Shown here piece after piece: positions 31,649 through 63,802 of a stretch of 64,000 nucleotides of DNA (positions are counted from its first letter, which is position 1; each line of letters starts with the position of its first letter). This DNA comes from Saxidomus purpurata (taxonomy: Eukaryota > Mollusca > Bivalvia > Venerida > Veneridae), in NCBI GenBank assembly GCA_022818135.1, contig JAFMSR010000016.1, positions 6,740,127-6,804,126 on the forward strand, written 5' to 3'. The notes beneath the pieces were generated by a model. That model did no database searches. It saw only the letters and a program-made list of their open reading frames with translations, and had not been told where the DNA came from. The position numbers were made by a program, and so were the translations under genes.

Positions 31649-34600
31649 TTACTCGTCACCACCTCCTCCTTCCGGGTACTCGTCGTCTTCACCTTCCTCG
31701 TACAGTTCCCGCACTCTGATATCTGGGCCGTGACGGACAGCACCGTAGCATCTCATACCTGAAAAACGTAACACATGCTACATATACGTGACACTCATTT
31801 AAAGATTGGGGGAAAAAAATCTGTTCTAAAGCAATATGTAATTTCAAAACGTTATATTAGCAATTACTTGGAAAGAAACAAAGATTTGGCTAGCATTTAT
31901 ACATATAATGTATGTACTTTCTTGCTTGACCATTGGTAATACATTAACTTATTTGCTTTTAAGTCTAGGTCAAACCTTTTATTGGAAATAACGTCAAATA
32001 ATAAAAACTGCAATCGTGACCCAATTCGGTACAACGCTTTTGTAGCAATGGTGCTAGTATATAAATATGTCGTAAAATGGTTTTGGAATGAATGTGGGGG
32101 GAAGGGGGATCCAGGTTGATTTACCATATGCCTTTAAGGAATCAGACGAGGTCAACCAATAGTTCACAAACCCCTCCATAAATGTTGACTGTCGCCAAAC
32201 AAGCCGACTGTTTAGTGTTGGAATGAATGTGGGGGGAAGGGGGATCCAGGTTGATTTACCATATGCCTTGAAGGAATCAGACGAGGTCAACCAATAGTTC
32301 ACAAACCCCTCCATAAATGTTGACTGTCGCCAAACAAGCCAACTGTTTAGTGTAAAATATAAGATTTAAAATATTAGAATCTGAATTCTACAAAGGGCGC
32401 TCGCTCGAGTTTTTATAAATCATTACCTTTCTGAGAGTCGTAGATATTGGTAAGCGTCTGCTGAGTAAGCATGCTTTCGCTTTCCTTGGTACTGTCGTCT
32501 GCTCTGATATCAGGTCCGTGACGGACAGCTCCATATGCGGTCATACCTAAGAAAGGTCAAGGTCTTTAAATAAAGGTTAAATAAAGATCATACCTGTAGC
32601 GGGTCAATGTCAAAAACCAGCATCTCTTGTAGTAAGCTGTCAATGTAAGTCTGTACGCATGCGCACTCGGATAATGTGTGTGACGGTCGAAAGTGTTCTG
32701 CAGTTAGTAATTGTGCCAAATTTTTCTCAATGTTTTGCGAATGCAGAATTTTAACACTCTCGCAGAATGTACTTTTGCTTATCAGAAAGGTTTCAAATTA
32801 ACAAGCGTGTTTTACAATCTAAAACGTGAACATGTTTATTCTGCTTTGCAGTTATAAACTTCCCCCCTCCAAACGTCCATGGTCGAAGTTAGCCAGCCCG
32901 TATACCCATTTTTCGAAGATCCAAGGACACATTTATAACGCGTTTTACTATCATTTTCTTTCAAATATGATTTAAAAATGTAATTTACAATATATTTAGA
33001 TGTTCTAGATACATTTCTTTGCGATTTGTTTTATGGAAACATACGGTCAGAAATCATTACCTTTTTGGGAGTCGTAGATATTAGTTTTTGTCTGCTGAGT
33101 AAGCAGACTTTCGCTCTCCTTGATACTATCGTCTGCTCTTATATCAGGTCCGTGACGGACAGCTCCGTAAGCAGTCATACCTAAGAAAGGTCAAGGTCTT
33201 TACATGAAAGTTAAATAAAGAGCTCATACCTGTAGCAGGTCGAGGTCAAAAGCCAACATCGACTAGAAAGCTCTTGGGTATGTCTGTATGCATGCGTGGT
33301 AAGGGCGGTAAATATGATGGTTACTTTTGCATTGCTTTCTTTCCATTCAATAAAACTGCGCTAGCTAATTTTCTGGTGTTATTTAAACTGCTAGCTGTCT
33401 AGTTTTACTATACAGTAAACTCTGTATATAACGAACCCCTTCATGTTCCTTATATCCGGTGTTTGTTATATCCAAAGTGAATTTTCAAATTAAATAAAGA
33501 AGGAATAAAATCGGGCCCAGAAAATTTATTCCTTATATCCAGAATTTCGCTATATCCAGAGTCGTTATATATGGAGTTTACTGTACATGTAAAGTAAAAC
33601 GGTTTAAACTAAGGGGTAATTTTTTAAACGAAAGAAGAAAGGACGCTTTCCAGTTGGTTTAAGGTGGCATAAAACCTGCTTTGCATTTGAACATTATATG
33701 CTTAGTTGATCTGAGTCACCTTTAGAAGCAGTGCAAAAGTAAATGGAAAACTTGAGATGAAAGTCGGTTTAAATACGATTAGTTTTGCATGTATATTGCC
33801 TTCAACTTACACAGATTTCAAACATTCTTGGCTTTCTAATTCGGTTAGTATTTTTTACATATTCTACTTACAGGCAGTATAATAAATCACATTAACTGAT
33901 GCATTTTTCATAAATCTTAGATATTTTTTTTTTCATAAATGAAAAATCAAGCACATCGGATAAAAGGTTCATTTTTTTAGCTGATTACAAGCGAGAGCAA
34001 CATTATCAATTTTGAAAAGCAGACGGACGAACAAATGGAAAAAAAATTCTTAAAATCATATACTGTAGCAACAAAACTGAAGAAGCTGAACATCAAAGGC
34101 ACATTGACTGCATCACTAAGAGCATTTAAACACATGTGGTTAGTTAAAGAAAGTAACTCACTGTTCACATTGACGCCACATTGAAGTCCACAGTCATCAA
34201 AGTTCTAAGTCAGATTCTAAACATGGACTTGAGATAACACGTACCGAACTTTTCTGTTTTCTACACGTATACTCCGAGCATTTCTTTGTTTGCATACCCT
34301 TTAACATATTTTTTTTCTGTTTGCCTAGCCTTAACCCAAATTATTTTTCTGTTTCCTCACCATTGACCCAAAGTATTTTTCTGTTTTCTCGCCCTTTACC
34401 TAAAGTATTTTTCTGTTTTCTCGCCCTTGACCCAAAGTATTTTTCTGTTTTCTCGCCATTTACCTAAAGTATTTTTCTGTTTTCTCGCCCTTGACCCAAA
34501 GTATTTTTCTGTTTTTTTCGCCCTTTACCTAAAGTACTTTTCTGTTTTCTCGCCCTTTAACTAAAGTATTTTTCTGTTTTCTCGCCCTTTACCCAAAGTA

Positions 34601-35349
34601 TTTTTCTGTTTGCTTAGCCTTAATTATTTTTAAAATTGCTAACCCTGTTGCCAAGTAGTTTTCTGTCTGGCACAGATTTAAGATGTTACTTCCAGTGTTT
34701 TAATAAAGCTGTAGTTAAATGTGTAGCCGTTTAACAATATCTTTCGTGTAGGAACGTTACACTGACTTAGAACAATGATGGATGCTGACGTAGTTGCCGT
34801 TTGTTGCGTTACGTCTCCGCATGACCGACACAGAAAGCTGTATACATGTAAATACTAACCTTTCTGAGAGTCATAGATGTTAGTTAACGTCTGTTGCGTC
34901 AGCAGACCCTGTGCTTCTTTGATAGTGTCGTCTGCAGCAATATCTCGTCCGTGACGTACAGCGCCGAAAGTCGTCATTCCGCTCTGAGAGGCGTAAATAT
35001 TGGTCTTTGCCTGCTGTGTCAGTAACCCCTGGCTGGCACGGAGCTGCTTCTTAGTCCATCGCTTCTTTGGCTTTGACTCCGACATCTCCTATAAAAGGGA
35101 ACAATTACCACATCTTTAAACAAAAAGTACATGTTCTAATTTTGTGAAAGTTCTAAGAAAATTAGAAAGCTGTAACAATATAAATACATGCTTCTTCAAC
35201 AGATCTTGATCAACAGACACAGATAATAATATGTTATTGTTCACGTCACCAAAGCAGGTTTAGGAGCTTAACGTGAGTACTAGCAAAAAACAAGTACAAC
35301 TTGTAATATAACTTTTGAACTACAGAATAATCGCAAAAATACTTACCAT
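31649..35349 (-). CDS. CLIK-repeat protein, unit 12 (four repeats, five exons)
   Basis: Exons in transcript order: the ATG at 35349-35347 (last codon of a first exon with donor ATG|GTAAGT), 35088-34860, 33180-33061, 32546-32427 and 31758-31649 (stop TAA). The protein is about 193 aa: leader EMSESKPKKRWTKKQLRAS, then four calponin-family repeats (TNIYASQSGMTTFGAVRHG and TNIYDSQKGMTAYGAVRHG types), then an acidic tail after VRELYEEGEDDEYPEGGGG. Each inner exon is 120 bp, one repeat, phase 1 at both ends. CLIK repeats bind F-actin along calponin, transgelin and UNC-87 proteins. It is the only unit whose repeats are split by introns. AATAAA on the minus strand at 31298-31303 could end the transcript. 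Confidence 0.8.
32085..32354. repeat. 135-bp tandem duplication in the last intron of unit 12
   Basis: Two nearly identical 135-bp copies start GGAATGAATGTGGGGGG at 32085 and 32220. Confidence 0.85.
33413..33583. mobile_element. TA-flanked palindromic MITE, copy 5 (intron of unit 12)
   Basis: CAGTAAACTC and GAGTTTACTG ends with TA on both sides, in the intron between the first two repeat exons of unit 12. Confidence 0.75.
34235..34625. repeat. 31-bp minisatellite in the first large intron of unit 12
   Basis: About ten units of AAGTATTTTTCTGTTTTCTC plus GCCCTTTACCT repeat with small changes. They lie in the same intron as the MITE at 33413. Confidence 0.8.
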
Positions 35350-35409
35350 TGTCCAATCAGTGCATTGCGTTCTTATTTGGTTGTTTAAGTTCTTTTTGTG
35401 TGTGTTGTG

Positions 35410-35416
35410 CTTTATA
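35410..35416 (-). promoter_or_regulatory. TATA box of unit 12
   Basis: TATAAAG on the minus strand, 61-67 bp before the donor-adjacent ATG. A start about 30 bp downstream would give a first exon of roughly 40 nt ending exactly in ATG. A MITE begins 18 bp further upstream. Confidence 0.55.
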
Positions 35417-35433
35417 TTCGGGAATTGCTACTA

Positions 35434-35617
35434 CAGTAAACTCAGTATATAACGAACCCCTTTGGATCATTTTAGTTTGTTCCTTATATCCGGAGTACGT
35501 TATATCCATTTAGCAATTTCATTTAAAATAAGGTGTGAACAAAATCGGGCCAAGATAATTTGTCCCTTATATCCATAGTATCGCTATACCCGGCGTCGTT
35601 ATATACGGAGTTTACTG
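35434..35617. mobile_element. TA-flanked palindromic MITE, copy 6, at the unit 12 promoter
   Basis: Intact CAGTAAACTC and GAGTTTACTG ends with TA on both sides. It lies directly upstream of the unit 12 TATA box. Confidence 0.75.
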
Positions 35618-36075
35618 TATACCTTTATTCATTCATAGCTGACAAGATATAGCATTTTCTTTTCCCAATTTAATATAAAACGATAGAACAAACATAACTC
35701 AAAAACATGTGTTGTCGAAATGCATATACAATGTAGTTTCTGTTTTAGTTTGACGGATTTACAGATTGACTCATGAAATGAATTTTATCCAAATTTGAAT
35801 TACAGTTAATAAGTGAATGTTTTTTTCAAAGACGTGTGATTTTCACTCAGTTTTAAAGTTTATGTTTTCCTTAATATATGTACTACCACTTTACGTCATT
35901 CTTGCGCCGCCGAAAATTGTACATATTTAGAGTGTTATGAAATCTATATTCTAGATAAAGTTTGATCACAATATATGTAATTGTTCTCTCTTATTTATCT
36001 ACATTTATTTTACAATCTATGTTTGAATATTATCGGTATTCTCAAAGGTAATTATATAGTTTTGTTTGTTTTTCA

Positions 36076-36339
36076 TCATTGTTCCTCCCCGCCCTCGTCT
36101 TGAGCACGACGTGACCTCGTCGGTTTCACTTCTTCTTCTTCGTCCGTTAGAAACTCGTCATCTTTTCCCTCGTACAGTTCACGTACTCTAATGTCTGGAC
36201 CATGCCGGACAGCTCCAAAGGTTGTCATGCCCGTCTGAGAGGCATAGATATTGGTCTTTGCCTGCTGTGTAAGTAACCCCTGGCCAGCACGGAGCTGTTG
36301 TCGTGTAAACCTTTTCTTCTTTTTTTCTCCCTCCATCTC
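36076..36339 (-). CDS. CLIK-repeat protein, unit 11 (one repeat)
   Basis: The exon opens after acceptor AACAG|GAG in phase 0 as EMEGEKKKKRFTRQQLRAG. It holds a single repeat (TNIYASQTGMTTFGAVRHG) and ends in an acidic tail after VRELYEGKDDEF with TDEEEEV. The exon codes for 87 aa; the ATG at 36336-36334 could itself be the start, giving 86 aa. A TATAAAG at 36662-36668 lies upstream, but a TTAA-flanked element (36352-36658) sits between it and the coding exon. AATAAA at 36004-36009 follows the stop by about 70 nt. With one repeat it resembles the C-terminal part of transgelins; its upstream exon was not identified. Confidence 0.7.
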   Translation of the reverse strand, partial: EMEGEKKKKRFTRQQLRAGQGLLTQQAKTNIYASQTGMTTFGAVRHGPDIRVRELYEGKDDEFLTDEEEEVKPTRSRRAQDEGGEEQ

Positions 36340-36351
36340 CTGTTTTAAAGT

Positions 36352-36658
36352 TTAAAGGTGGTCAATAGGCATCACATTAAAACTACCACATAAAGACATG
36401 TTTAGCGAACCCGCTTTCCTCTCCCCCCCCCTTTAAACTCCCTTTAAAGAAAAAAAATCGAAGTATATCAGTAGTTTTTGAGATTTTTTATTTGGCTTGT
36501 GTGAAAAATAGAATATATTTTTGTAGTATCTATGTCTTCAGATTCAATCGTATTTTTCATCACGATATATTTTCTATGCAACAAATAAAAAGCCACCCAT
36601 ATTTATTCCCGAGTTTTTGGATCACCATAGTTATGCGATTCCGTTTGACCACCTTTAA
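36352..36658. mobile_element. TTAA-flanked MITE in the unit 11 upstream region
   Basis: TTAA then AGGTGGTCA at the left and TGACCACCT then TTAA at the right. The inverted ends and TTAA target site fit a non-autonomous piggyBac-like element of about 300 bp with no transposase. Confidence 0.6.
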
Positions 36659-36661
36659 ATC

Positions 36662-36668
36662 CTTTATA
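36662..36668 (-). promoter_or_regulatory. TATA-like box upstream of unit 11
   Basis: TATAAAG on the minus strand directly outside the MITE. The predicted start would fall inside the MITE, so function is doubtful. Confidence 0.3.
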
Positions 36669-38232
36669 ATTAGCTCGTGCTATCGACTGGTACCTTATGT
36701 CTTGAAGAAAGAGTGTAATTTACTAAATCATACTCAATACTATCTAATTTCAATAGTATTAAGCACTGAAACCATTTCCATAGCAACGGATCAGTTTTAC
36801 TGAACTTGCAATTCAGACAACTGTGTTTGGATTTAGATTAAGTGTGTCGGTTCCTTCCTTAATACATTGAGCGGTAACACAGGCGGCTCGAATATAACAA
36901 GTTTGGAGCAAATTGCGGCTAGCTAGCTGGTTAATTGTGCAACATAGAGCCATGACAGACGGTACGATAAAAGTTTATACATGCATCAGGAAATGTGTTT
37001 CTTCTGCACTAGTAGCAGGAGTAGTTGTATACCTTTGTCATAAACAACTGACCTTCCAAAAACTTTGAACGTCGTGTTCGGATAAAAGTACGCTAACATT
37101 TAAACTCCGCTGTGTTTAAAGACCAACATGTTAACTTAAGTCCATTGTAGATCTATCTAAAGCGGTGCATCGGAGTTTCGTAGTCAAATTTTAAATGACT
37201 GGTATTTAAGTAATTTCATAGGCACATTACAATGCAAATTCAGGTTTGCTTCCACAAAGCATACCTCAAATTGAATTAAAAAAAAAAACTATTTAGTAAG
37301 GTCAAAATTGTTACAACAAAGGTATACATTCAAGGTCTTATTGACTTAGGGTCCTTTAGGTAACGCATTTCTCCCAGGCGATTAATCGCCTACTAACTTA
37401 TTTCTGCTCAAATTGAACTTAGCTTTCTTGAACTTCAGTTTGACACAGTCATTCTAATAATCTAATTCATTGTCGTATCTCTGTCACAAATCGAAGCCAA
37501 GGCATGTCTTGTTTCAACAATTAGTTGACACCTAGCCAAGAATATGTTTACGTTCCCTCGATCGATTGAAAACACCTTTTACTTTTTGTATGCCAAGCAC
37601 ATCATGTGTACAGATCCTTAAAATATCGGGAAATATCGTGTAATGTCGGAATGTTCCGTAAATTGCCGGACATCGGTTTGTCTCGGTCAATATCATATTC
37701 AACGAATATGCCGGAACAGACCGTAATTACACAAAATCCTGTGCCTATCAGACATCGGAACCGGAAGTCAGGGGATTTCTCAACGGAATTTTATATCTAT
37801 GTGTCAGCGTGCATTATCTTAAATATGTCACACATGCCAAAAAGAACAATTATTCTAGTTTCAATAATTTTACTACGTGTGTATATTATACAATTTGTAA
37901 GAATAAATACTTGTAAAATCTAAAGTATGAAAACTTTCTAACAAAGTTGAACGTTTCTAACACATGTGGTATATATGATTAAAACACGGAAACTCTAATA
38001 AATCATAATTACGTTCTATTAATACAAGATGCATTTATGTTAACATCCTTTTTGTATTTATCCAGTTTTGACATGACATTTGTCATAAATTATGTAACCG
38101 TTTTGAGTAATTTGTCTTTTCTACATGTAAGTTTTCAGTTACAAAGTAAGTTAATTAACAGGTCACCATTCCTATCAGAGCAATCATTAAAGTAACTTTC
38201 AGCAGTCTTATGCTTTGTTTACTACACGAAAT

Positions 38233-40753: not shown

Positions 40754-41626
40754 CTACCAAGCGAAACCTCCGTCACCGCCATCATCTGCTTCTGGTTCTG
40801 GTTCTGGTTCGGGCTCTGGTTCTGGTTCCGGTTCGGGCTCTGGCTCGGCTATTACAGGCTCAGGCTCAGGGGCAGGTACGTTCTCCTTGGAGCTCTTGGC
40901 GTTTTTAGCATCTCGGCGCTTTTGACTTTCTGACACTTTTACCTCATCTTCTTCGTCAGTTGGATACGCTCCATCATCTTCATCCCAAAGCTCAGTAACT
41001 TTAATATCTCCTCCGTGTCTTACAGCTCCGAAAGCCGTTGAACCTTTTTGAGAAGCAAAGATATTTGTTTCAGCAATTTTGGTCAACACGCCCTGGCTCC
41101 TTGCATCCATATCACCTGCCTTAATGTCTTTACCGTGTCTCACTGCACCGAATGGTGCCATCCCTTTCTGTGAGGCAAAAATGTTTGTTTCTGCTACTTT
41201 TGTGAGTACACCCTGACCCCTCAAATCGGATTCATCAGCTACTATATCCTTGCCATGTCGGACTGAGCCAAATGGAGTCATTCCCTTCTGTGATGCATAA
41301 ATATTAGTTTCAGCGACTTTGGTCAGAACGCCTTGTCCTCTCTGGTCAGAATCATCAGCGACTATATCCTTTCCATGTCTCACTGCACCGAATGGCGACA
41401 TTCCTTTCTGAGACGCATAGATGTGAGTGGCTGCGACTTTGGTCAGAACTCCTTGACCCCTCATATCTGACTCGTCGGCTGCTATATCTCTGCCGTGTCT
41501 GACAGCTCCAAATGGTGACATACCACTCTGTGAGGCATACTTATTGGTGGCGGCCCACTGGTGGACAAATCCATGTCCGGCACGGAGCTGCTTTTTTGAA
41601 AACTTCTTCTTTGGCGTGTCAGACAT
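40754..41626 (-). CDS. CLIK-repeat protein, unit 9 (five repeats, Glu-Pro tail)
   Basis: The coding exon starts with ATG directly after acceptor GCTACAG (MSDTPKKKFSKKQLRAG) and codes for 290 aa. The first repeat (TNKYASQSGMSPFGAVRHG) is followed by four LTKVAETNIYASQKG-type repeats. The tail VTELWDEDDGAYPTDEEDEV leads into a run of about ten Glu-Pro dipeptides and ends GGFAW. A TATAAAG at 41770-41776 lies about 145 bp upstream, and CCCCAG|GTTGTT near 41711 could be a first-exon donor; splicing there would remove two upstream ATGs. The Glu-Pro run is encoded by a near-simple repeat. Confidence 0.85.
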   Translation of the reverse strand: MSDTPKKKFSKKQLRAGHGFVHQWAATNKYASQSGMSPFGAVRHGRDIAADESDMRGQGVLTKVAATHIYASQKGMSPFGAVRHGKDIVADDSDQRGQGVLTKVAETNIYASQKGMTPFGSVRHGKDIVADESDLRGQGVLTKVAETNIFASQKGMAPFGAVRHGKDIKAGDMDARSQGVLTKIAETNIFASQKGSTAFGAVRHGGDIKVTELWDEDDGAYPTDEEDEVKVSESQKRRDAKNAKSSKENVPAPEPEPVIAEPEPEPEPEPEPEPEPEPEADDGGDGGFAW

Positions 41627-42337: not shown

Positions 42338-43749
42338 TTACTCTTCCTCCTCTTCCTCCTGTGCTTGTGCTGCTGGTTGCTGCTTTTGTACTGGTGCAGG
42401 TTCATCTTCGTCCGTAGCATATTCGCCATCATCTTCTTCGTACAGTTCCTTAACATTGATATCCTTGCCGTGTCTAACTGCGCCGAAACATGTCATGCCC
42501 TTCTGGGAGTCGTAGATATTTGTTTCTGCTTGCTGGGTCAAGAAAGCCTTGCCTTCTTGGTTCTCATCATCGGCGCGAATATCGGCACCATGGCGTACGG
42601 CTCCATAGCCAGTCATTCCCTTTTGAGAGCAGTAGATGTTAGTCTCAGCGATCTGTGACAACTGGCCGTTGCTTTCCGTACGGATATCATCAGCTCTTAT
42701 ATCTGGGCCGTGACGGACCGAGCCATACCCGGTCATTCCTTTCTGTGAAGCATAAATATGCGTGGCAGCTTGTTGGGTGAGTATTCCCTGACCGTCAGCG
42801 TTGGCGTCATCGGCTCTTATGTCTGGGCCGTGGCGGACTGATCCATAGCCTCTCATTCCCTTTTGGGAGGCATAAATGTGGGTAGCAGCTACCTGGGTTA
42901 ACAAGGCTTCTCCCTCTTTGTTCTGATCATCAGCACGAATGTCAGCGCCGTGTCGTACTGCACCATAACATGTCATACCAGACTGGTTGGCGTAGATGTT
43001 TGTTTTAGCTTGTTGGGTGAGAATGCCCTGGCTGGCTCGAAGCTGTTTCCTCGACCATCTCTTCTTCTTGCCTGCTTCCTGTCGTTAAAAAACTTTAATT
43101 AAAAACTGTTCAACTTATATTAGTTAGGAAGACAAATTGTATTTATTAGTATATGATTAATAGATGCTCGACATATCTACAGGTGATATTATATGTTATT
43201 CAATTAAGAATTTTGGCGATGATACTAAAGCTGTAGCAATTAATAAAATATGTGAATTTTAAAGCTAATCTGACTTTATATCCTACAACAGTTGAAAACA
43301 TGTATGGTAAATATTTGTTTGAGAGTTTTCGAATATTTGCAATTGATAAAACGACACAAAAAAAAAAAAATGTGACAGATGGAAAAGTTGGAATTCGGAT
43401 CAAGACGTGCTAAAAGTTGAATTCTATTGGTTGGGGGAAAATTAAAATGAATTTTCTACATGAATTTTGTAGGGATTTTACTACACTATCTAATGACAAC
43501 ATGAGACTCTGTGTGTGTGTATTTGATGATATGAAAGGAGTGCATTCTAATTAGTATGCTAAGAAACTGCCAGTGAAAAATGTTAGATTAAAATAGGGCT
43601 TATTAATAAAAATAAAAGTGGTAATAAAACATTATTGTGTGACGGCAGGGAAACAAAAACAGTGCAGCGATAAATACACTTACCAGAATGTTATGGCAAT
43701 GCACATTCCTCGAAAAAATACATAGCGCAACACATTTCACAAGACACAT
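42338..43749 (-). CDS. CLIK-repeat protein, unit 8 (five repeats, separate first exon)
   Basis: The main exon, 43078-42338, opens after acceptor CGACAG as EAGKKKRWSRKQLRAS with no ATG before the first repeat, so it needs an upstream coding exon. One fits at 43749-43684: 22 codons starting MCLVKCVAL and ending HCHNIL, strong donor CTG|GTAAGT, phase 0, and hydrophobic with four Cys. Five repeats follow (TNIYANQSGMTCYGAVRHG, then THIYASQKGMRGYGSVRHG and similar), then VKELYEEDDGEYATDEDE and a Gln/Glu-rich end. Total about 268 aa. The first exon is inference from phase and donor quality. The CH exon at 63.2 kb would also join in frame. Confidence 0.75.
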
Positions 43750-44252: not shown

Positions 44253-44633
<381 letters not shown>

Positions 44634-44854: not shown

Positions 44855-45421
44855 TTATTCATTTTCTTCTTCCTCTGCCTCCTTTTCTTCGTTTACTTCC
44901 GGTTCCGGTTCTGGTTCTGCCTGAGGAGCTGCTGGCTCTACTCTAGGGCTTCTTCTTATGGCTGGCTTTTTCTCCTCTTCCTCATCAGTTGCGTAATCAT
45001 CATCTTCGTCATAAAGCTCTCGCACTCTAATATCAGCGCCGTGCCTTACAGCTCCATATCCCCGCATTCCTTTCTGTGAGGCATAGATATTTGTCTCCGC
45101 TTGTTGTGTGAGCACACCATGACCTTCCTGAACACAATCGTCTGCCCGGATATCTGCGCCATGACGTACTGAACCATATCCCGTCATGCCTTTCTGTGAT
45201 GCATATATATGTGTTGCTGCCTGTTGAGTAAGGACACCTTCTCCGTCTTTGGTCTGATCATCAGCTCGTATGTCAGCACCGTGACGAACGGCACCGAACG
45301 CAGTAGAACCGCTTTGCGAAGCATATATGTTAGTTTTAGCTTGCTGAGTTAGCATTCCCTGACTAGCACGAAGTTGTTTCTTTGACCACCTCTTCTTTTT
45401 CTTTTCTCCTGTCTGTTCCAT
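44855..45421 (-). CDS. CLIK-repeat protein, unit 6 (three repeats)
   Basis: The exon starts with ATG directly after acceptor TTAACAG (MEQTGEKKKKRWSKKQLRAS) and codes for 188 aa. Three repeats (TNIYASQSGSTAFGAVRHG, THIYASQKGMTGYGSVRHG, TNIYASQKGMRGYGAVRHG) are followed by VRELYDEDDDYATDEEEEK and an acidic end. A likely upstream exon ends at 45694 (TTCATAG|GTAAGA); it contains a 10-codon frame MAFCGCKWTS closed by TAG exactly at the donor. The stop codon TAA overlaps an AATAAA (44854-44859). Confidence 0.85.
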   Translation of the reverse strand: MEQTGEKKKKRWSKKQLRASQGMLTQQAKTNIYASQSGSTAFGAVRHGADIRADDQTKDGEGVLTQQAATHIYASQKGMTGYGSVRHGADIRADDCVQEGHGVLTQQAETNIYASQKGMRGYGAVRHGADIRVRELYDEDDDYATDEEEEKKPAIRRSPRVEPAAPQAEPEPEPEVNEEKEAEEEENE

Positions 45422-52996: not shown

Positions 52997-54358
52997 TTAC
53001 ATGTCCGAAGTGCCTTGCGATGGGTCAGCATATTCAAGATCGTCGTACGTATATAGATCTTCATCATCGAACAATTCGTGCACTTTAATATCACCACCGT
53101 GCCTAACAGCCCCGAATCCACCCCTAATACCGCTCTGCGAGTCTCCCTTGTTCCATCCAGATTGGTAATTGATCATAGCATTACTCTCCTGGTTGAAGTC
53201 GTCAGCTCGGATGTCGGGGCCATGGCGTACTGCGCCATATGATGTCATACCTTTCTGGGAAGCGAACCTGTTAGAACCAGATTGGAGCTGTACCTCTCTG
53301 TTTGATTCTTCATTGAATTCGTCAGCCCTTATGTCTGCACCATGGCGTACTGCCCCGAAACCACCACGCATACCGCTCTGAGTCTCGTACTTATTTGTAC
53401 CAGCTTGTAGGATGACAATTCCCTGTCCCAATGCATTTTCATCATCGGCTCTTATGTCTGGTCCATGACGTACAGCACCAAAGCCACGTGTACCTTTCTG
53501 GGAATCGAACTTGTTTGTACCAGACTGCAAAATGGTTATAGCGTTACTGTCTTGGTTCATGTCATCGGCTCTAATATCTGCGCCATGTCGTACAGCACCC
53601 GGGGCTGTCATACCTCTCTGCGATGCAAACTTATTCGTACCTGATTGCAGCCAAACATCACCTTCGCTCTCTTTTGTCTGATCGTCGGCACGGATATCGG
53701 CGCCATGACGTACTCCACCGAAACATCTCATTCCTTTCTGAGAGTCGAACTGATTCGTACCAGACTGGAGAATATTGATGGCATTACTATCCTGGTTTAA
53801 GTCGTCAGCTCGGATATCAGCGCCATGCCTTACAGCTCCTGGTGCGGTCATGCCTTTCTGCGAGGCAAACCTGTTTGAACCCGACTGAAGCCAAACATCT
53901 GCCTCACTCTCTTTGGATTGGTCATCTGCACGTATATCTGGACCATGACGTACTGATCCAAAACCACCTCTAATGCCTTTCTGAGACTCGAACTTATTTG
54001 TTCCTGACTGGAGAATAGTCATAGCATTACTGTCCTGGTTGATATCATCTGCTCGGATATCAGCACAGTGGCGCTGTGTACCAATACGCATTCCTTTTTG
54101 GGTTTCATATTGATTCGTACCGGACTGAAGGATGACGAACCTGTTGCTCTCGTCCGTTAGGTCGTCTGCACGTATGTCAGCACCATGCCGAACTGCTCCG
54201 GGGCAGGTCATGCCTTTTTGAGATGCAAATTTGTTCGTACCATTCTGTAATATGAGAATGGATTGGCCCGCCTTCAGCTGTTTCCTAGTGAACTTCTTCT
54301 TTTTCTTCTGCTGGGGCGGAGGGCCAGCGGTGGGCCCCTCAAACTCGTTTCGTTGTGC
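52997..54358 (-). CDS. CLIK-repeat protein, unit 4 (ten repeats)
   Basis: The exon opens after acceptor CTCTTCAG in phase 0 with AQRNEFEGPTAGPPPQQ, the linker that follows CH domains, then KKFTRKQLKAGQ. It codes for 453 aa with ten repeats. Inner repeats alternate between a NQDSNA..ILQSGTNKF type and a KESE.DVWLQSGSNRF type, a two-repeat period of about 82 aa. The tail VHELFDDEDLYTYDDLEYA differs from other units. There is no in-exon ATG before the first repeat. A TATAAAG lies at 54694-54700 and a donor GTAAGT at 54646, but the short ATG frame there (ATGTGGTGTGT) ends in phase 2, so the true first exon is unresolved; splicing from the CH exon is in frame. Confidence 0.8.
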   Translation of the reverse strand, partial: AQRNEFEGPTAGPPPQQKKKKKFTRKQLKAGQSILILQNGTNKFASQKGMTCPGAVRHGADIRADDLTDESNRFVILQSGTNQYETQKGMRIGTQRHCADIRADDINQDSNAMTILQSGTNKFESQKGIRGGFGSVRHGPDIRADDQSKESEADVWLQSGSNRFASQKGMTAPGAVRHGADIRADDLNQDSNAINILQSGTNQFDSQKGMRCFGGVRHGADIRADDQTKESEGDVWLQSGTNKFASQRGMTAPGAVRHGADIRADDMNQDSNAITILQSGTNKFDSQKGTRGFGAVRHGPDIRADDENALGQGIVILQAGTNKYETQSGMRGGFGAVRHGADIRADEFNEESNREVQLQSGSNRFASQKGMTSYGAVRHGPDIRADDFNQESNAMINYQSGWNKGDSQSGIRGGFGAVRHGGDIKVHELFDDEDLYTYDDLEYADPSQGTSDM

Positions 54359-55644: not shown

Positions 55645-56993
55645 TTAAAAATCACAGTAAGAGTCTTCTATGTTTGGAATTTGCATATCTGCCGGATGTC
55701 TCATCGCCCCAAACATCATCCCCGACTGCGAAGCCCCTTTATTACTTCCTGCCTGTAATCCAATGTACCCCTGGCCATCTTGGCTCATGTCATCCGAGCG
55801 GATATCAGCAATATGTCTCGGAGCGCCGAAACTCATTCCCGCCTGGCTGGCCCCTTGATTATATCCATATTGTCCACCAATAATCGCCTCCCCTGCACGA
55901 TTTGGTTCATTGATTCTTTGATCAGACACTTGCCTTGGAGCACCGTAACTCATACCGGCTTGCGTTGCGCCCTGGTTATACCCATATTGTCCACCAATGA
56001 TTGCCTCTCCAGCACGATCCGGTTCACTGATTCTCTGATCGGAAACTTGTCTCGGTGCACCGTAGCTCATACCGGCCTGTGTGGCTCCTTTGTTAAACCC
56101 TGCTTGACCACCGATGATCCCTTGGCTGGCTCGATCATACTCATCTACATGAGACTCTGCGATATGTCTAGGCGCTCCGAACGACATACCTGCTTGTGTT
56201 GCGCCTTTATTGAACCCGGCCTGTCCGCCAACAATACCGTGAGACTCCGAGGCCATCCCTTGCATATTTTGATCTGAGACCTGTCTAGGTGCTCCAAACG
56301 ACATACCTGCTTGCGAAGCCTTTTTATTGGTACCAGCTTGAAGACTGATGATACCTTGTCCTTGTAAAGTCATGTCTTCTGCTTTTATGTCTGCAATATG
56401 TCGGGTACCACCAATAGTCATCCCGGCCTGACTTGCACCTTTATTGTAACCGGCCTGACCCCCGATAATGCCCTGACTCCTTCTATCAAAATCATCAGCC
56501 TTTATATCGGCGATATGTCTAGAAGCCCCGATTCTCATACCTGCCTGGGATGCTAATTTATTTGTTCCAGCCTGCAGACCGATTATAGCTTTCCCAGCAT
56601 TCAGTTGATCGTCTGTGAAATGCCGTATGTTCTTGGTTGTTGGTTTTGATCCTGCTGTTGGTCCTTTAAAACCATGTCGTTGAGCCTACAAGGTAAAAAC
56701 ATCTATGATTAAAATACCTTAAATAAAATTTCCTTCTGATGCTTAGAGAAACAACACACAAAAATCATAAGTAATAAAATTTTATCACGTCAAATTACTT
56801 TTTAATTAATTACTATTTACCAATGTACCAAATGTACTAAGAAGTGTTTGGCTAAGGCATTCGTTGTTACACATTTAATGATTTGTAAGACAAGTATGAA
56901 AACAGTAATGACTTATTTTGTGTTCAAAAAGTAATACGGAAATACATTTTAATGTAATCTTACCTTACTCTTCATGTTACAGACATATGCCAT
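55645..56993 (-). CDS. CLIK-repeat protein, unit 3 (eight Gly-rich repeats)
   Basis: Exon 1 is 56993-56964: ten codons, MAYVCNMKSK, donor AAG|GTAAGA, phase 0. Exon 2 is 56685-55645 and opens AQRHGFKGPTAGSKP, the CH-type linker, then HFTDDQLNAGK. Eight repeats follow, total about 356 aa. The repeats differ from all other units: many read GGQAGFNKGATQAGMSYGAPR or GGQYGYNQGATQAGMS with SDQ after the arginine, and the usual V.ELYDE acidic tail is replaced by MQIPNIEDSYCDF. The two GGQYGYNQ repeats are almost identical, a recent duplication. AATAAA at 55614-55619 lies 26 nt after the stop. A TTATAA at 57075-57080 is a weak promoter candidate. Confidence 0.85.
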
Positions 56994-57309
56994 TTTAATT
57001 CAGTCACGAACTTGATCAAACCGTTAACGGGTAAAAGTAAAACTTAAACTTTAAATCATTTTATTTCAAAACGGTTATAAATCTATAAAACATTACACAA
57101 TTTAAACTGAGATACAAGCTGGGAACAGTGTTTCTTTCAGTGGAAATGGCATCCAAGTTTCAAAAAAGTTAGGTAAATATTAATATATTAGTTGTGAAGC
57201 AAATCACTCCGCATTCTTTCAACAGTAAAACTTGTGCCATGAGTAAAAACTCAAAACTTTGCACACGAAATGTAGCTGACATTTAGACATTTTTATGGAA
57301 CCCTGTCTC

Positions 57310-58144
57310 TTATTCATACACATACTGATGCTCCTCGTCACTTTCAAGATATTCTCCTTCATCACAGAGTTCAGTAACTTTGATATCCGAAATATGGCGC
57401 TGTGCACCAAATGACGTCATTCCACGTTGTGACGCACATCGATTTGTTCCAGCAGTCTGTAAACTTAGCATCGACATTCCCTCGATGCTTACATCATCAG
57501 CCTTTATATCAGCTACGTGGCGAACACTGCCAAACGACATACCCTTCTGTGAAGCAAACTGATTGGATCCCATTTGTATATTGATTATAGACTTTCCTTC
57601 TTCGGTTAAATCGTCAGCTTTGATATCTGAGACATGTCTAACAGCCCCAAAAGCCCGGGAACCAGCTTGGGATGCGAATCTGTTAGTAGCAGCCTGTTGG
57701 GTAAGTATAGAATTGCCCTCAGGATCGATGTCGTCACATTTTATGTCTGAAATGTGCCGAACAGCGCCGAAAGTCATTCCCTTTTGACTTGCAAACCGGT
57801 TTGTTCCGGACTGTAAGCCAATCATACATTGTCCCGCTCGGAGCTGTGATCTTGTAAATAACCGCTTCTTTTTCTCGGCTGGCTTAGGGCCACAGACAGG
57901 ACCGGGAAATTTATTTCTTTGTGCCTGCAAGGAAGTTTCAGTTTGTATTCTAACATTTTTTTGTTTTAACATTTCTTAAATTTCAGACAAAAAAAAACAA
58001 ATCGACCAAACTTTATGAACTTCAAAATTTTGATACGTTCTACTTGAAATTTTCTCGACAAATAATTCCAAAAAATTACAAAAATGATATTTCTCAAAAT
58101 ATTACTTTACCTACTCGTATTGTATATATGCATGCGACATCCAT
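57310..58144 (-). CDS. CLIK-repeat protein, unit 2 (four repeats)
   Basis: The main exon, 57924-57310, opens after acceptor CTTGCAG in phase 0 as AQRNKFPGPVCGPKPAEKKK, then LFTRSQLRAGQ. A matching first exon lies at 58144-58115: ten codons, MDVACIYTIR, donor CGA|GTAGGT, phase 0, the same length as the first exon of unit 3. Four repeats (TNRFASQKGMTFGAVRHI, TNRFASQAGSRAFGAVRH, SNQFASQKGMSFGSVRHV, TNRCASQRGMTSFGAQRH) precede VTELCDEGEYLESDEEHQ. Total about 214 aa. AATAAA at 57060-57065 follows by about 245 nt. The exon 1 call is inference: an alternative donor four bases on would break the frame. Confidence 0.8.
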
Positions 58145-58180
58145 CTACGTATACTTGTAAAGCGGCGATATCATTTTCGG

Positions 58181-58187
58181 TTATATA
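58181..58187 (-). promoter_or_regulatory. TATA box of unit 2
   Basis: TATATAA within ACATATATAACCG on the minus strand, 37-43 bp upstream of the ATG of the short first exon, which fits a very short 5' leader. Confidence 0.45.
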
Positions 58188-58794
58188 TGTGTACCAAACG
58201 TCATTCTTTTGAGAGATATATATATGTATATATGTTTTTTGTTGCATATATCGTCAAAATCATTTCGCAGTTCTATAGAATCTAGTGTTATGTTATATAG
58301 ACATATCCATAAATGAAGCGTTCCAACTACCTCTTTAAGTATATTGTTGTTGTTATAACATTCCAGAATATACTGAGAGTAATATATATTTATTAGTTAT
58401 ATTCTTAGCGCTAGATTACTATCAGTTTGACCATGTTGAGAAAATGGATACTTTTTTTTTCTTATGTAGGCATTTATTTCGACATCAATCTTACGTAATA
58501 CACTCACATTGATAAAAATAGTTTTCGAACGCGGTCATAATCTTTAAACAGTTTTGTAATTCTTTATACTTATATATAGAGGGTTTCCCTCTATTTTCAA
58601 ATTTCGATATAAATTGCTAGATCACTATGTTCAAGTTAAATAATTTCAGGTTTTACAACGTCATTTAGTGAAAAGCTGAGTCATTAGTGCTGATACGCGT
58701 TTTCTTTGTCGACAGTAATTTACTTTTTATAGTTCAATACTGTATAAAGCGTGTCCTCATCTTGATTGTTCCCTTAGTTATGTTCATGTTTATT

Positions 58795-59655
58795 TCACTC
58801 TTGCACACATTCGTCATTGTATTGTCCATATCCCTCTTCGCCCTCTTCCGGTTCGTACTCGTCGCACAATTCGGTCACCTTGATATCTGATACATGACGT
58901 GCAGCCCCGAAACCGCGCATGCCGCTCTGACTTGCTCCCTTGTTCCAACCGCTTTGGAGATTCACGAAACCTGAACTCTCCTGACTTGCGTCGTCCGATC
59001 GAATGTCGGCGACATGGCGGACCGCTCCGAACGACATTCCCTTCTGTGTTGCGTACTTGTTGGATCCCATTTGCGAACCGACTTCCCCAGCACTTTCTTG
59101 ATTGTAATCGTCGGCTCTTATGTCTGCACAATGTCGGACTGCACCAAACGACATTCCCTTTTGACTTGCAAATTTATTCGTCCCACCTTGGAGTGTTAGT
59201 TCCCCCATTCCCTCTGCGACCATATCGTCTGATTTAATATCGGAAATGTGTCGAATGGCACCAAACGACATTCCCTTCTGACTCGCGAATTTATTCGTCC
59301 CGCTTTGGAGAGTAACTTCCGCCTGACCTTCTTGTGACATATCGTCTGCTCTTATGTCAGCACAGTGTCGAACGGCGCCAAATGACATTCCTTTTTGACT
59401 AGCGAATTTATTTGTTCCACTTTGAAGACCAAGGTCTGCTTGGCCTTCTTGGTTAAAATCGTCTGCTCTTATATCAGCACAGTGCCGAACTGCTCCAAAA
59501 GTCATACCTTTTTGTGATGCGTATTGATTTGTACCGCTCTGGGGTGTAAGAATTGAGTGACTTTCCCTAATTTGTTGCCTGGTAAATTTCTTCTTAGGAT
59601 TTCGTGCTGTGGGCTTATGCCCACAAACCGGGCCATCAAAGTTCAGTCGCTGAGC
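58795..59655 (-). CDS. Calponin C-terminal exon, unit 1 (six CLIK repeats)
   Basis: After acceptor ATTGCAG the exon reads AQRLNFDGPVCGHKP in phase 0, the linker that joins CH domains to CLIK repeats in calponins, then KKKFTRQQIRES. Six repeats follow, mostly GTNKFASQKGMSFGAVRH, and the last, [18 protein letters not shown], is calponin-like. The tail VTELCDEYEPEEGEEGYGQ ends in VQE. The exon codes for 286 aa. There is no ATG before the first repeat. The nearest compatible upstream exon is the CH exon ending at 63204 (phase 0), which would give a full calponin. AATAAA (58789-58794) follows the TGA with no gap. Confidence 0.85.
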   Translation of the reverse strand, partial: AQRLNFDGPVCGHKPTARNPKKKFTRQQIRESHSILTPQSGTNQYASQKGMTFGAVRHCADIRADDFNQEGQADLGLQSGTNKFASQKGMSFGAVRHCADIRADDMSQEGQAEVTLQSGTNKFASQKGMSFGAIRHISDIKSDDMVAEGMGELTLQGGTNKFASQKGMSFGAVRHCADIRADDYNQESAGEVGSQMGSNKYATQKGMSFGAVRHVADIRSDDASQESSGFVNLQSGWNKGASQSGMRGFGAARHVSDIKVTELCDEYEPEEGEEGYGQYNDECVQE

Positions 59656-59659
59656 CTGC

Positions 59660-61200
59660 AATTACCGAAACCGCACTTATCAGGGATTTCGGAATGTTTA
59701 CTTAATCGTTTAAGTTTGTAAAAATATTTCTAACGAAAAATGCTTGTGAAATTTTCTAGTAACAATTTTAAGATAATAATTTTGAAAAGAAGTTAAATGA
59801 ACTTTCAAATTAATGATGTTATGCAAATTGTGACGCGCCAGGCAAAAAGCTGTAACGTGCAAACCGTTTTCCGTGTAATCCTCTTCGAAATGTATAAACT
59901 GTTGTATTATAAATGAGTTGAAAAGTTGAACGGTTTAGATAAAGAATCCGTTTTCGTAACTGACTTGACTAATATGTTTGGTTATCGACAACTTAGAAAG
60001 GCTGTTAAATGCCTGAAAAAATATGTTTTATCAAATGTTTATGCACCCGAATGGAACTTAGGATGTGTTAAGAGATACATATATGTATCATTTTAAATGT
60101 GTCAATAAATGACCAAATCATTCACCCTACAGCTTTACCTTCTGTCCGTTGCGTCACAGATGCTATTTAATTAAATACATCTTATATCTAAATATTCTAT
60201 TTTTGTTAAACACAATGCATAGTACATATTACTTTTTGTGCAGTTACATTTAGATTTACAAGAGATGCATGTGCATTAAGGAAAGAGACAGAGAGACACG
60301 TAAGCCCAACACAACACTATAAGCCGTTAAACAGAGTTTTCCTTCTTTGTATATTCATGTACGTCTTGTTTGAAATATGCCGAATGTTTTTGCAGCATCA
60401 ACATGTTCAGTTAGACTACTTATGCATTGTAGACAATTAAAATAAAAATTATTCGAGCAAAAATTGGTCTTGCACGGATTTTATTCAAGTAAATCCAGGT
60501 AAGTTGTTTAAATAATAAGAAGTTAAACCTATTGAGTTTTATCTAAAATCTAACTCTGAAATACGTTAACCAGAATTAAGGGTAATTTCGAGATGCAAAT
60601 ATGCGTTAAAGAGTAAGACGAATTTAGAAAACTACAAGAGAATTTTGAAGAAAAAGTACTGAATATGTACATACTATTTTAAGAATGTATCATGCTAGTG
60701 CACACAATGCTTTTGCAGTCTGAAAGTTGTGAGAGCTATTTCCTACTGACCAACGTATAGAATGTATATTATTTTCGAATATTACCGACTAAAAGACGTT
60801 TTTGATGTTACATTTAAATGCCTGGTTAACATGGTTACTACAGTGAGTTAATTCTCTTATCAGTGTATATATTCGTTAGAATGCTATCTTAGTGAGCACT
60901 ATTCTCTAAAACATGTCATCAACTTGCATTTTAATATTTCATAACCCTAATTCTGACGTATAAGCTATAATACAGAGCATAATATGAGTAAGCGTACATT
61001 TAAAGCAACAATGACGTCATTTGCCTTCCTATGCCATGGCAGACAAATCAATATTTTCCCTTGTTTTTACTTGCACTTGCTTCTGTGACTCTTCCAAAAG
61101 TTTAAATCCTTTTTCAACAGTAAAAATGATCAAAATGTCAGGAAAAAAATTATACTGAATATTCCTTTTCCCTAACTTAAATCGCAGCTAGGCACTGTAG
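59660..61200. other. Intron or spacer between unit 1 and the 61.4-kb exon candidate
   Basis: No repeat-coding or CH exon is visible. A minus-strand TATAAG (60181-60186) followed 40 bp later by donor AAG|GTAAAG (60139) copies the promoter layout of other units but contains no ATG. Confidence 0.35.
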
Positions 61201-61202
61201 TG

Positions 61203-61442
61203 TCAGGAATCGGCAGATTTGTTAATCTGTTCCAGGAAGTCCAGTGTGTCCATACATACCTGTACTATAGAAAAGTCCTTCATACACATTCCTTCCTTCA
61301 AAGTATTCAATAAAACGCGGTCTTTTAATATACCGCGTGATATAATTCCGATATAGCACGGTGATGCATTTCCACATAAGGATCCAGTCTCTCCACAATT
61401 ATTTCCTTTAAATGTGCCATTACGTTGAGGTTTAAAATCCAT
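61203..61442 (-). CDS. Unrecognised 79-codon frame, possible alternative first exon
   Basis: The frame starts MDFKPQRNGTFKGNNCGE, which resembles the unit linkers (AQRNxFxGPxCG) but without an intron and without repeats after it. It continues with GILKDRVLLNTLKEG, which faintly recalls the first half of a CH domain, and runs to a stop at 61203. A strong donor ACAG|GTATGT at 61260 lies in phase 0, so 61 codons could splice to any downstream unit. It may be a decayed sibling of the linker exon, an alternative start exon, or chance. No function is assigned. Confidence 0.3.
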   Translation of the reverse strand: MDFKPQRNGTFKGNNCGETGSLCGNASPCYIGIISRGILKDRVLLNTLKEGMCMKDFSIVQVCMDTLDFLEQINKSADS

Positions 61443-61444
61443 GA

Positions 61445-63200
61445 TGTATTCTTTTCGAATGAGATTTCATTTAATATTCGAATAAGTTTTCATTTAATAT
61501 TCGAATGTGATCATTCAGATAGAAAACACTGTTTACATCGGCGGAATTAATTCTTCAAAATCACTCACTAAACACCATCATGGTCTAACCATTTGAAGCA
61601 GTGGTCAAGTTCACCCGTAAATAACACGTCCAAAATGCGCATAGCCAAACACTTCTTATTACACCTAACTATCACAGAAAATAAATGAATAAATAAACTA
61701 TAAACTAAGAGAAATCTGTATCAAACCGATAACTCGAAGCAGGTCTAGTTAGACAAACAATATGTTTATAAATTATATTCACTACAAAGCACTTTGTTAT
61801 TTTTGTTCAGCCAATTATAACAAGTTATTAATTATAACAACAAGTTATTAGCTTACCATTGAAGTGTTATCATATAGATATCGGTGCTATAACAGCCCTC
61901 ATGCAAATGCTATGTGTGTGGACAGACATTCAGCATATGTACTTTAAGTACAGATATAGTATGACATTGGAAAAAAGGAATCGCCTTGCAGGACAATATC
62001 TGACATTCTAACAATACGGTTATTGTTAAACATTAAATATGGGACTGCTTAAACTATATACACGTTTAATTGAAAACCTTAACGTATTTTAAAATATTGT
62101 ATTGTCCTTCAAGGAAAAGTGACTCTAATATCATTGTCAGTCATTAGTAACCGTTACAATTACTTCTGAATATCTTTTTATAAAGGGATGCTTTAAAAAG
62201 TGTTGCTTTAGAACAGACTTAATAAATCACCAGGGATATATACTTATAAACAGATCGAGACATTTTGATTACCTAACTTCCTAAGAATACAGACTCAAGT
62301 AAAAAATGTCTGAATTACTTTATATGCTAATATTAAAAGCACAAAAATATGGAACAGAATGGAACACGCATTAAAACAAACATGAATTGGATTTGAAACC
62401 AAGAAATCAGGAGCATTCCCTGGCAGGTGTTGGCGAATGACGTCAGCAACCCATGTGATGACGTTCACTAAAATGCATTGCCTTAGTTTCGAGTTTCAAA
62501 AATGCATATATTGTGTATGTTAAAATCCATACATTTTCTTGTTATTATTCTTAAAATACTGTTTAAAATACGAAGGTCGTCAAAAGTGTTGTATGTGAAT
62601 GTCTGACACACACGAAAGTATACACAGGTAGAATGAAGATTATATTTTGCCATATCGTGTATGTCGGCAGTTACAAATACGACATCCAGTAGAAATGATT
62701 AGTTGTAAGCCGTATCATATGTGTATTTGTAAAACAGTTCTTGCGTCTTTAAAACTCCTACGGACTGATTGTTTTAACTACATAGTTATAAGTGTTATGT
62801 GTTAACCAAAAAATATCAAATATTTGTTTCCCCAGACTAAAGCTAGTTAAATTGAAGTAGTTTTTTTATGATAATAAAAATGTCACATTTGAAGACAAAT
62901 GAATACAATGTCTTTTTCGCATTAAATAAACTAGAAAGATGATTTACAAAAAAAAAAAAAAAAATTGAAGTAGTTTTTATGACCATCAATTTTGCATCGA
63001 ACCTTTTATAATTTGGGTACCGTTTATATAGCCCATACAAAACACTGTTTTACAAAAATGTACTTTAAAGTAGCATGCCGTATTATATTTGTTAATTAAT
63101 TACATGCACATTACTCTAGGTTTGCAGTGAAACACTACAACCTGTCAGGAGTAAGTATGTGTGAGTATATAAAACAACATTGCACGAGAAAACTAACCCT
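61445..63200. other. Intron of the CH gene; no gene recognised
   Basis: CATTTAATATTCGAAT occurs twice near 61468-61505. A poly(A) insertion flanked by a direct repeat lies at 62849-62982. No other coding signal was seen. Confidence 0.4.
62872..62963 (+). mobile_element. Small retroposed poly(A) insertion
   Basis: A segment of about 90 bp containing AAATAAA near its end and a 16-base poly(A) run is flanked by AAATTGAAGTAGTTTTT on both sides (62849 and about 62962). The direct repeats are a target-site duplication as made by LINE-driven retroposition. The source transcript is unknown. Confidence 0.6.
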
Positions 63201-63203
63201 TAC

Positions 63204-63802
63204 CTCTGATCCAACTTGCAGAATTGTCGCAATTACCATGGGCATATTCTTGCCTTCATATAAATCATTACAAGCAAAAAGACCACTCTGTGTAACTCCG
63301 TATGCAGCCGCCGCCTGTAGGAATATTTCTATGTTTGCCATCTGAAAAAACAAAATCCTTAGTTAAAGGGGAACTCCCTACATCTAGCAGATTATATTCT
63401 CCAAACATAAATAATGTGTTGAATGAACGTAAGATGATAAATATAAAGCCCTTTTAACACGAATAATCGACATAGAGGCCTTTTGTAATAAATCGCTAAC
63501 CATCGATTGTTCAACAACAACGTTCCATAGATTTGACATAAGTTTTGGGGAGTGCCTCTTTAATTTACACCTTAGCGTGTGTATAAATCTAGCGTATAGG
63601 AAAACATTGTTTTACTCCCTTTCTCTTTTTAACTAAAGAATCATTAGCCCAAAAGGTTACACTGACTTGAGATAATAAGACATTAACTTCAGGACTGACC
63701 TGTATGGCACCTCTTTCACTTTTTTTCCCCTTGGGTTTCACACTTTTGCATGCTGGTGGGAGGGAACTCTCCGGTGTGCCACTGAATATAGTCTGCATCA
63801 AC
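63204..63802 (-). CDS. Calponin homology (CH) domain, C-terminal half; partial gene
   Basis: Two exons: 63802-63700 (34 codons plus one base, ending SERGAIQ, donor CAG|GTCAGT) and 63341-63204 (46 codons, phase 0 at both ends, starting MANIEIFLQAAAAYGV). The text FACNDLYEGKNMPMVIAT matches the CH signature LFxxxDLYExKNxPxV of calponins and transgelins, where this single type-3 CH domain contributes to actin and signalling interactions. The first half of the domain and the start codon lie to the right of the window. The donor SE|GTAAGG in phase 0 suits the AQR linker of unit 1, 3.5 kb downstream, and in principle every other unit. Confidence 0.85.
63363..63563. mobile_element. TTAA-flanked MITE in the CH-domain intron
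   Basis: TTAAAGGGGAACTCCC at the left and GGGAGTGCCTCTTTAA at the right form imperfect inverted ends bounded by TTAA, suggesting a piggyBac-like non-autonomous element of 200 bp. Confidence 0.5.

Follow-up and report, generated by a model that had tools for sequence, protein, structure and literature searches.

One calponin gene and twelve calponin-repeat units in a clam: likely alternative tails next to predicted CH-less genes

When a dozen calponin-repeat units stand beside a single calponin-homology (CH) domain, does each form a CH-less gene of its own, or do they serve a single calponin as alternative terminal exons? The question is raised by a stretch of 64,000 nucleotides from the bivalve Saxidomus purpurata (C16:6740127-6804126, contig JAFMSR010000016.1; genome 1.13 Gb), called the window here, whose numbering is used for all array coordinates. 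On its minus strand, one CH gene is followed by twelve units of CLIK repeats (U1-U12) across 28 kb. The initial annotation of this DNA had put the two possibilities as an either/or, which proved too simple: the units fall into two classes, and both readings find support, in different units. We propose, with a probability of roughly 0.7 and from sequence comparison, that the locus comprises one CH gene with five alternative tails (U1-U4 and U7) and seven CH-less genes for actin-binding proteins (U5, U6 and U8-U12).

Twelve open units beside one CH domain

The coding parts of the locus are listed below; a slash marks an exon boundary, and P numbers stand for database proteins.

About 70295-70272, beyond the right edge of the window, minus strand: CH gene exon 1, starts MDRSLTSK; strong phase-0 donor (11.8 bits)
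About 64146-64022, beyond the right edge, minus strand: CH gene exon 2
63700..63802, minus strand: CH gene exon 3 (103 nt), by splice reading
63204..63341, minus strand: CH gene exon 4, ends ...LQVGSE; phase-0 donor GAG/GTAAGG at 63204
58795..59655, minus strand: U1, likely AQR-linked terminal exon, 6 CLIK repeats; 86.7% identity over 286 residues to the tail of Ruditapes calponin-1-like isoform X4
57310..57924, minus strand: U2, likely AQR-linked terminal exon with 4 repeats; no clear orthologue, CH-bearing P0059 coming closest (54%)
55645..56685, minus strand: U3, likely AQR-linked terminal exon with 8 repeats and without an acidic tail; CH-bearing P0037 comes closest (57%)
52997..54358, minus strand: U4, likely AQR-linked terminal exon, 10 repeats; linker present, class scores 97.5 vs 94.2 bits
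49904..51241, minus strand: U5, linker-less, CAG/ATG start, 9 repeats; its relative P0025 (Dreissena, calponin homolog OV9M-like) starts MTNGT
44855..45421, minus strand: U6, linker-less, CAG/ATG, 3 repeats; P0004 is 80% identical, with the same MEQTGEKK start
44253..44525, minus strand: U7, single repeat, CH-linked class, no ATG; acceptor 329 bp past the U6 stop
42338..43078, minus strand: U8, linker-less, no ATG at the start, 5 repeats; by Pfam and class profile
40754..41626, minus strand: U9, linker-less, CAG/ATG, 5 repeats, EP-rich tail; tree partner P0016
38233..38961, minus strand: U10, linker-less, CAG/GAAGAAATG, 3 repeats, long acidic tail; 72% to Ruditapes P0001, 76% to P0014
36076..36339, minus strand: U11, linker-less, CAG/GAGATG, 1 repeat; by Pfam and class profile
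34860..35088, minus strand: U12 exon 1, TAG/GAGATG; U12 has 4 repeats in all
33061..33180, minus strand: U12 exon 2 (120 nt)
32427..32546, minus strand: U12 exon 3 (120 nt)
31649..31758, minus strand: U12 exon 4 with the stop

A CAG or TAG closes each of the twelve predicted acceptors, behind which a CLIK-repeat frame opens in phase 0, and eleven of the twelve units are a single open exon with its own stop, U12 consisting of four exons joined by phase-1 introns. The annotation had described twelve units on one strand, most of them single exons with their own stops and all with phase-0 acceptors, and each of these statements holds, on the minus strand and with frames open behind AG acceptors. 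The argument from phase is weaker than it seems, because the exons of U5, U6 and U9 begin at an ATG, and phase is uninformative if that ATG is the start. Counting repeat cores gives 6, 4, 8, 10, 9, 3, 1, 5, 5, 3, 1 and 4 for U1 to U12, 59 in total, as the annotation had listed unit by unit; another list in it ('1, 1, 1, 3 ... 10-type') was garbled. For U5, the sequence reading, Pfam and the codon comparison agree on nine repeats. Matches to PF00402 (E<=0.001 for U1-U10, E<=1 for U11 and U12) total 57 stretches over the twelve units, with 6, 4, 8 and 9 in U1, U2, U3 and U4, and CLIK repeats were also confirmed in U5, U6 and U8-U12; Pfam detects 9 of the 10 repeats of U4 and 4 of the 5 of U8. 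The acidic end that had been called conserved is present, by eye, as an EL[YCFW][DE]-type motif with acidic residues in 10 of the 12 units; U5 ends in an acidic stretch without the motif, and U3 has neither.

Over 40 codons in the 10 pairs among five linker-less units, the proportion of nonsynonymous differences (pN) is 0.09-0.23 and that of synonymous differences (pS) 0.62-1.08, which is saturated; between repeats within six units, mean pN is 0.19-0.29 and mean pS 0.79-0.85. The low pN against a saturated pS in the five linker-less units argues that the protein sequence is under selection. Since the unit-level Pfam E-values range from 2e-85 to 8e-6, these figures together exclude a chance origin of the array.

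The CH gene extends past the right edge of the window, its exons 1 and 2 lying within the next 6.3 kb of the contig. Joined, exons 1-4 match PF00307 with an E-value of 5e-15, which bears out the claim of a single CH domain, and this domain lies upstream of U1-U4 on the same strand. Over its whole length (132 residues) it is 80% identical to that of Ruditapes P0039, and the optional exon that this Ruditapes protein, isoform X4, has between CH exons 1 and 2 is matched in the present gene at 54% over 33 residues. Among the PF00402 matches listed for the animal's own genome, at least 35 of at least 40 lie on the array contig, all 35 inside the window, and the other five on C3 and C8; with 66 candidates scored, these counts are lower bounds.

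Some further features lie within the array. Between CH exon 4 and U1, at 61206-61442 on the minus strand, is an open frame of 79 residues with a strong phase-0 donor at 61260; it has no Pfam family above cut-off and could be either a further first exon or a chance frame. The first intron of U12 holds about 10 copies of a 32 bp tandem repeat (34280-34623), and its last intron a 135 bp tandem duplication with 98% matches (32083-32353), presumably recent.

Two sequence classes among the units

The linker that follows the CH domain in mollusc calponins begins with AQR. U1-U4 start with A-Q-R and carry an AQR...G...G..P linker, 22 or 23 residues before the first repeat. As relatives, 157 proteins were fetched from the best 120 of 200 matches of one search and from others returned. 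We built class profiles of the first-repeat region from database proteins, 76 CH-linked and 22 linker-less (the latter without P0026, whose sequence starts within the first repeat), and scored all twelve units with both. The CH-linked profile is favoured by U1-U4 and U7, the linker-less profile by U5, U6 and U8-U12. Margins run from 3 bits (U4, 3.3) to 60 (U8), the linker-less units being assigned by 16 to 60 bits; U7 scores 77.6 bits with the CH-linked and 64.3 with the linker-less profile.

Proteins that carry a CH domain were scored in the same way. Of the 157, 102 bear CH; every one of these scores higher with the CH-linked profile and none with the linker-less one, a test that is partly circular. 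Their linker is 22 residues long in 93 of 102. A looser linker pattern gave 100 of 102; the stricter check was used instead. A search with U8 (lengths about 135-430) returned 35 proteins, namely 7 CH-bearing, 23 linker-less and 5 others. All seven CH-bearing proteins carry the linker and none of the 23 linker-less ones carries a CH domain, although the length limits would admit CH joined to U6, U8, U9 or U10. The five others are P0022, P0030 and P0031, with a QR/QK linker and no CH, and P0034 and P0035, which are UNC-87/OV9M-like.

Several observations weigh against so clean a division. U7 has no AQR linker: its exon starts ANPTEASGQKKRPK, and the would-be linker has 14 residues. Over full length, the seven proteins that match U5 best all bear CH and many repeats, and U8 is about equally close to two CH-bearing proteins, P0073 and P0012, and to linker-less P0004. 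With such mixed matches, the class of U5 and U8 rests on the first-repeat profile. The count of 102 is itself coloured by the 76 CH-linked training rows, which were drawn from that very set, and it includes some proteins of flatworms, annelids or fish. Four of them (P0073, P0151, P0154 and P0157) have no computed Q[RKL] in the linker, in P0073 owing to a misplaced CH end.

Likely tails of one calponin and predicted CH-less genes

A unit joined to a CH domain is found in Ruditapes, where P0039 (calponin-1-like isoform X4) consists of the CH domain (80%, 132 residues) followed by U1 (86.7%, all 286 residues). In a set of 87 proteins matching the CH-AQR junction pattern, there are ten pairs whose members have at least 50 identical residues up to the end of the QR junction and diverge after it (filters: at least 40 shared residues, identity below 0.85 over the next 60). 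The shared stretch measures 142 residues in P0042/P0058, 126 in P0067/P0117, 125 in P0032/P0070, 143 in P0027/P0071 and 138 in P0047/P0060, the last two pairs having records without a species name on one or both sides; the other five pairs share 50-58. P0032 is a Pinctada record whose name starts 'calponin splicing is'. A CH domain identical through the AQR junction and followed by different tails is the pattern expected of alternative terminal exons, and such mollusc CH isoforms are already in public records. We take U1-U4 and U7 to be likely alternative terminal exons of the CH gene; none of the four AQR units has an ATG at the acceptor, within the first three codons. CH exon 4 would be spliced from its phase-0 donor to one AQR-class acceptor at a time, each tail with its own stop and a putative poly(A) site, and U7 would be reached from this donor across about 19 kb. 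The resulting calponin would carry 6, 4, 8, 10 or 1 repeats via U1-U4 and U7, and CH joined to U7 would be a transgelin-like protein.

This part of the proposal has to accommodate some contrary points. A CH-bearing orthologue is seen for U1 only, U2-U4 matching CH-bearing proteins at 54-57%. Some junction pairs cross species, including sister species, and the identity of 0.08 past the junction in P0032/P0070 is an indel effect in an ungapped count. The 329 bp between the U6 stop and U7 hold no strong donor.

In Magallana gigas, P0037 and P0067 are also unlike each other midway through the CH domain, which would fit two mutually exclusive versions of one exon.

U5, U6 and U8-U12 are predicted to be separate CH-less genes, a reading that rests on a conserved ATG, the class split and the missing joins to CH taken together. 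The ATG stands right at the acceptor in U5, U6 and U9 and 3 or 6 nt into the exon in U10-U12, so that it is found in the first three codons in six of the eight units without AQR (six of the seven linker-less ones, all but U8). At a chance of 0.065 per unit, the nominal P is 2e-6 (6/8) or, over all twelve units, 5e-5 (6/12), values that are too strong since paralogous units are not independent. Met occupies the matching position in 18 of the 22 linker-less relatives, with the proviso that gene callers favour Met starts. CH-less proteins are on record at NCBI from Mya (P0006), Dreissena (P0011 and P0025) and Ruditapes (P0001). These genes would be transcribed from promoters 3' of the CH exons via a short 5' exon, the start codon of U8 coming from a further, putative exon.

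For such an exon of U8, a phase-0 exon with an ATG, we considered a local candidate with its donor at 43684 and the open frame with its donor at 61260; neither is convincing. Donors were scanned at a cut-off of 7.5 bits with a generic matrix not trained on this genome, which makes them weak evidence: the twelve gaps hold 17 strong donors on the coding strand and 8 on the other, none of them before U4, U7 or U9, which is not decisive. In a comparison of the gaps on the coding strand, no similarity that would point to a shared first exon or promoter was found at 1e-3.

The case for CH-less genes has its own difficulties. U8 and four relatives (P0015, P0020, P0023 and P0029) have no ATG and need an upstream coding exon, possibly the CH exon. 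All three ATGs of U10-U12 keep the phase of the acceptor, which would occur once in 27 by chance. Records that lack CH may be lone exons called as genes, as with P0118 and P0119, two AQR tails entered on their own, and in P0001, P0002 and P0005 the leader resembles translated intron; exon-only records being common, CH-less records alone prove little. The gap before U9 (711 bp) holds no strong donor, and the gaps before U10-U12 hold 4 on the coding strand and 5 on the other. A poly(A) signal lies within 1.2 kb past 11 of the 12 units (not U10), which in AT-rich DNA proves little.

In a variant of our proposal, the linker-less units form one second transcription unit with a single promoter, for instance in the 4.5 kb between U5 and U6, from which a first exon is spliced to any of U6-U12. 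No other gap of the array is as long as that separating U5 from U6 (4482 bp), where 4 strong donors lie on the coding strand and 1 on the other; the absence of strong donors before U7 and U9 and the retained phase 0 of U10-U12 would also fit. However, no common first exon or promoter was identified in the gap comparison, and strong donors also precede U5, U8, U10, U11 and U12; scores of a generic matrix count for little. We regard this variant as unlikely, if still worth keeping in mind.

We consider it doubtful, to a slightly greater degree, that a single calponin gene uses the whole set of twelve units as alternative terminal exons, joined to the CH donor or, with CH skipped, to exon 1 (MDRSLTSK). 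The twelve phase-0 acceptors, the strong phase-0 donor of exon 1, the need of U8 and its four ATG-less relatives for an upstream coding exon and the lack of a strong local donor before U7 and U9 all speak for it. Against it, a linker-less tail is found in none of the 102 CH-bearing proteins, with the circularity noted above, and the seven CH proteins of the U8 search have the linker even though joins of CH to U6, U8, U9 and U10 were within the length limits; the start ATG in six of eight own units without AQR and the Met in 18 of 22 relatives are further arguments. Such a transcription unit of ~39 kb, from exon 1 through or past the CH exons to any of the twelve acceptors, would yield calponins with CH as well as UNC-87-type proteins without it, holding 1 to 10 repeats. 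In other clams, the CH-less genes would then be stages in the release of exons as genes, distal tails gaining an ATG and a promoter, an extension that we hold to be just as doubtful.

That all twelve units are independent CH-less genes, the CH gene having other tails, is very improbable: each unit does have its own stop, but Ruditapes isoform X4 fuses CH to the U1 orthologue, CH proteins with identical heads have different AQR tails, and U1-U4 show no ATG at the acceptor. Least probable of all is an array made up mostly of duplicates that have decayed to pseudogenes, or a single continuous mRNA from which the stops are spliced out, because, although tandem duplication yields redundant copies and U7 and U11 are short, all twelve frames are open behind intact acceptors, pN is low against saturated pS in the five linker-less units, and relatives match (nearly) the whole of U1, U6 and U10 at 76-87%.

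Relatives, known systems and meaning

The proposal of one CH gene with five tails and seven CH-less genes can be set against relatives in other animals. The nearest named relatives of the locus proteins come from Ruditapes, Mya, Dreissena and other bivalves. A tree of the first 62 residues (47 rows, 63 columns; without P0007, P0011 and P0152, which lack the anchor motif) has 14 of 44 inner forks well supported and was used only for orthologue pairs. U1-P0039, U6-P0004 and U9-P0016 are well-supported (starred) forks, and U10-P0014 reaches 99/76 and is not starred; the tree sets linker-less rows near AQR rows with weak support. Records from contigs of equal length suggest that array members are linked in four other assemblies. 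The U10-like P0001 and P0039, the CH+U1 protein, appear to share a Ruditapes contig of 82.6 kb (82,557), and P0008, P0010 and P0016 one contig of 45.6 kb (45,632). P0003 and P0021 seem to share a contig of 3.7 Mb (3,706,354), and P0011 and P0025 a Dreissena sequence of 67 Mb (66,979,997); neither of these two says much on closeness. On these grounds, several units are older than Saxidomus purpurata.

Within the same genome, two loci about 32 kb apart on C3 (G000:C3, near 50437000 and 50470000) each have one CLIK and one CH match on the same strand and look like a small second tandem pair, of transgelin-like genes. On the plus strand of the window, a tRNA-Thr (TGT) gene was found by ARAGORN at 25960-26033 (Rfam tRNA at 25960-26032). 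Exons at about 19270-23000, also on the plus strand, presumably belong to a gene like RBBP5, a WD40 subunit of histone methyltransferase complexes; the one exon tested in Pfam gave weak WD40 matches, all below cut-off.

Both kinds of product, CH-bearing and CH-less, are already known. Like the products proposed here, bivalve calponin isoforms (Pinctada P0032; Magallana gigas calponin-2 isoform X2, P0037; Crassostrea gigas transgelin-2 isoform X10, P0117; Ruditapes P0039) combine a CH head, an AQR linker and a CLIK tail, and have identical CH stretches with different tails. What sets the present locus apart from them is that the putative tail exons share an array with seven linker-less units and that one locus offers 1 to 10 repeats. 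The linker-less units resemble nematode UNC-87/OV9M in having CLIK repeats and, as predicted, no CH, but differ in their short K-rich starts, mostly acidic tails, 1-9 repeats and position beside a CH calponin gene; the UNC-87/OV9M-like matches of U8, P0034 and P0035, are only 33 and 30% identical. A comparison with solved structures returned one match, at chance level (E 0.59). Transgelin, with CH and one CLIK repeat according to passages of PMC10285543, is the product that CH joined to U7 would make, except that U7 has its 14-residue linker without the AQR motif and that its junction to CH is a predicted one. The same passages present a mussel calponin-like protein (CaP-40) with CH and five CLIK repeats, described there as a protein and not as a gene array, and cite Ono 2021 for up to 23 repeats in molluscs. 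In parts of PMC12040844, a 40 kDa mussel calponin is a thin-filament protein of catch muscle that inhibits actomyosin ATPase, and in parts of PMC4517812, sixteen numbered calponin-like entries are reported from the layers of mussel shell, of which seven occur in the muscle-attachment layer alone. In open-licence literature (titles, abstracts and some passages), no description was found of a joint array of this kind beside one CH gene.

According to passages of PMC2963174, UNC-87 has seven CLIK repeats and lacks CH; it attaches to actin filaments along their side, stabilises F-actin and protects it from cofilin. By analogy, the CH-less products would bind and stabilise actin filaments. The proteins of the locus would differ in repeat number, presence of CH and acidic tail, and repeat number and tail charge would set how tightly actin is held, perhaps with the products at work in different muscles or cells.

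Within one family, alternative exons would stand adjacent to separate genes, and this may explain why mollusc records bear names as varied as 'transgelin-2 isoform X10', 'calponin homolog OV9M-like' and 'C53C9.2-like'. If repeat number sets the hold on actin, as the repeat's role as a binding site would imply, tails of 1, 1, 3, 3, 4, 4, 5, 5, 6, 8, 9 and 10 repeats, with or without CH, would form a natural dose series, in animals some of whose muscles hold force cheaply (catch). One locus would then supply a graded set of actin-binding proteins.

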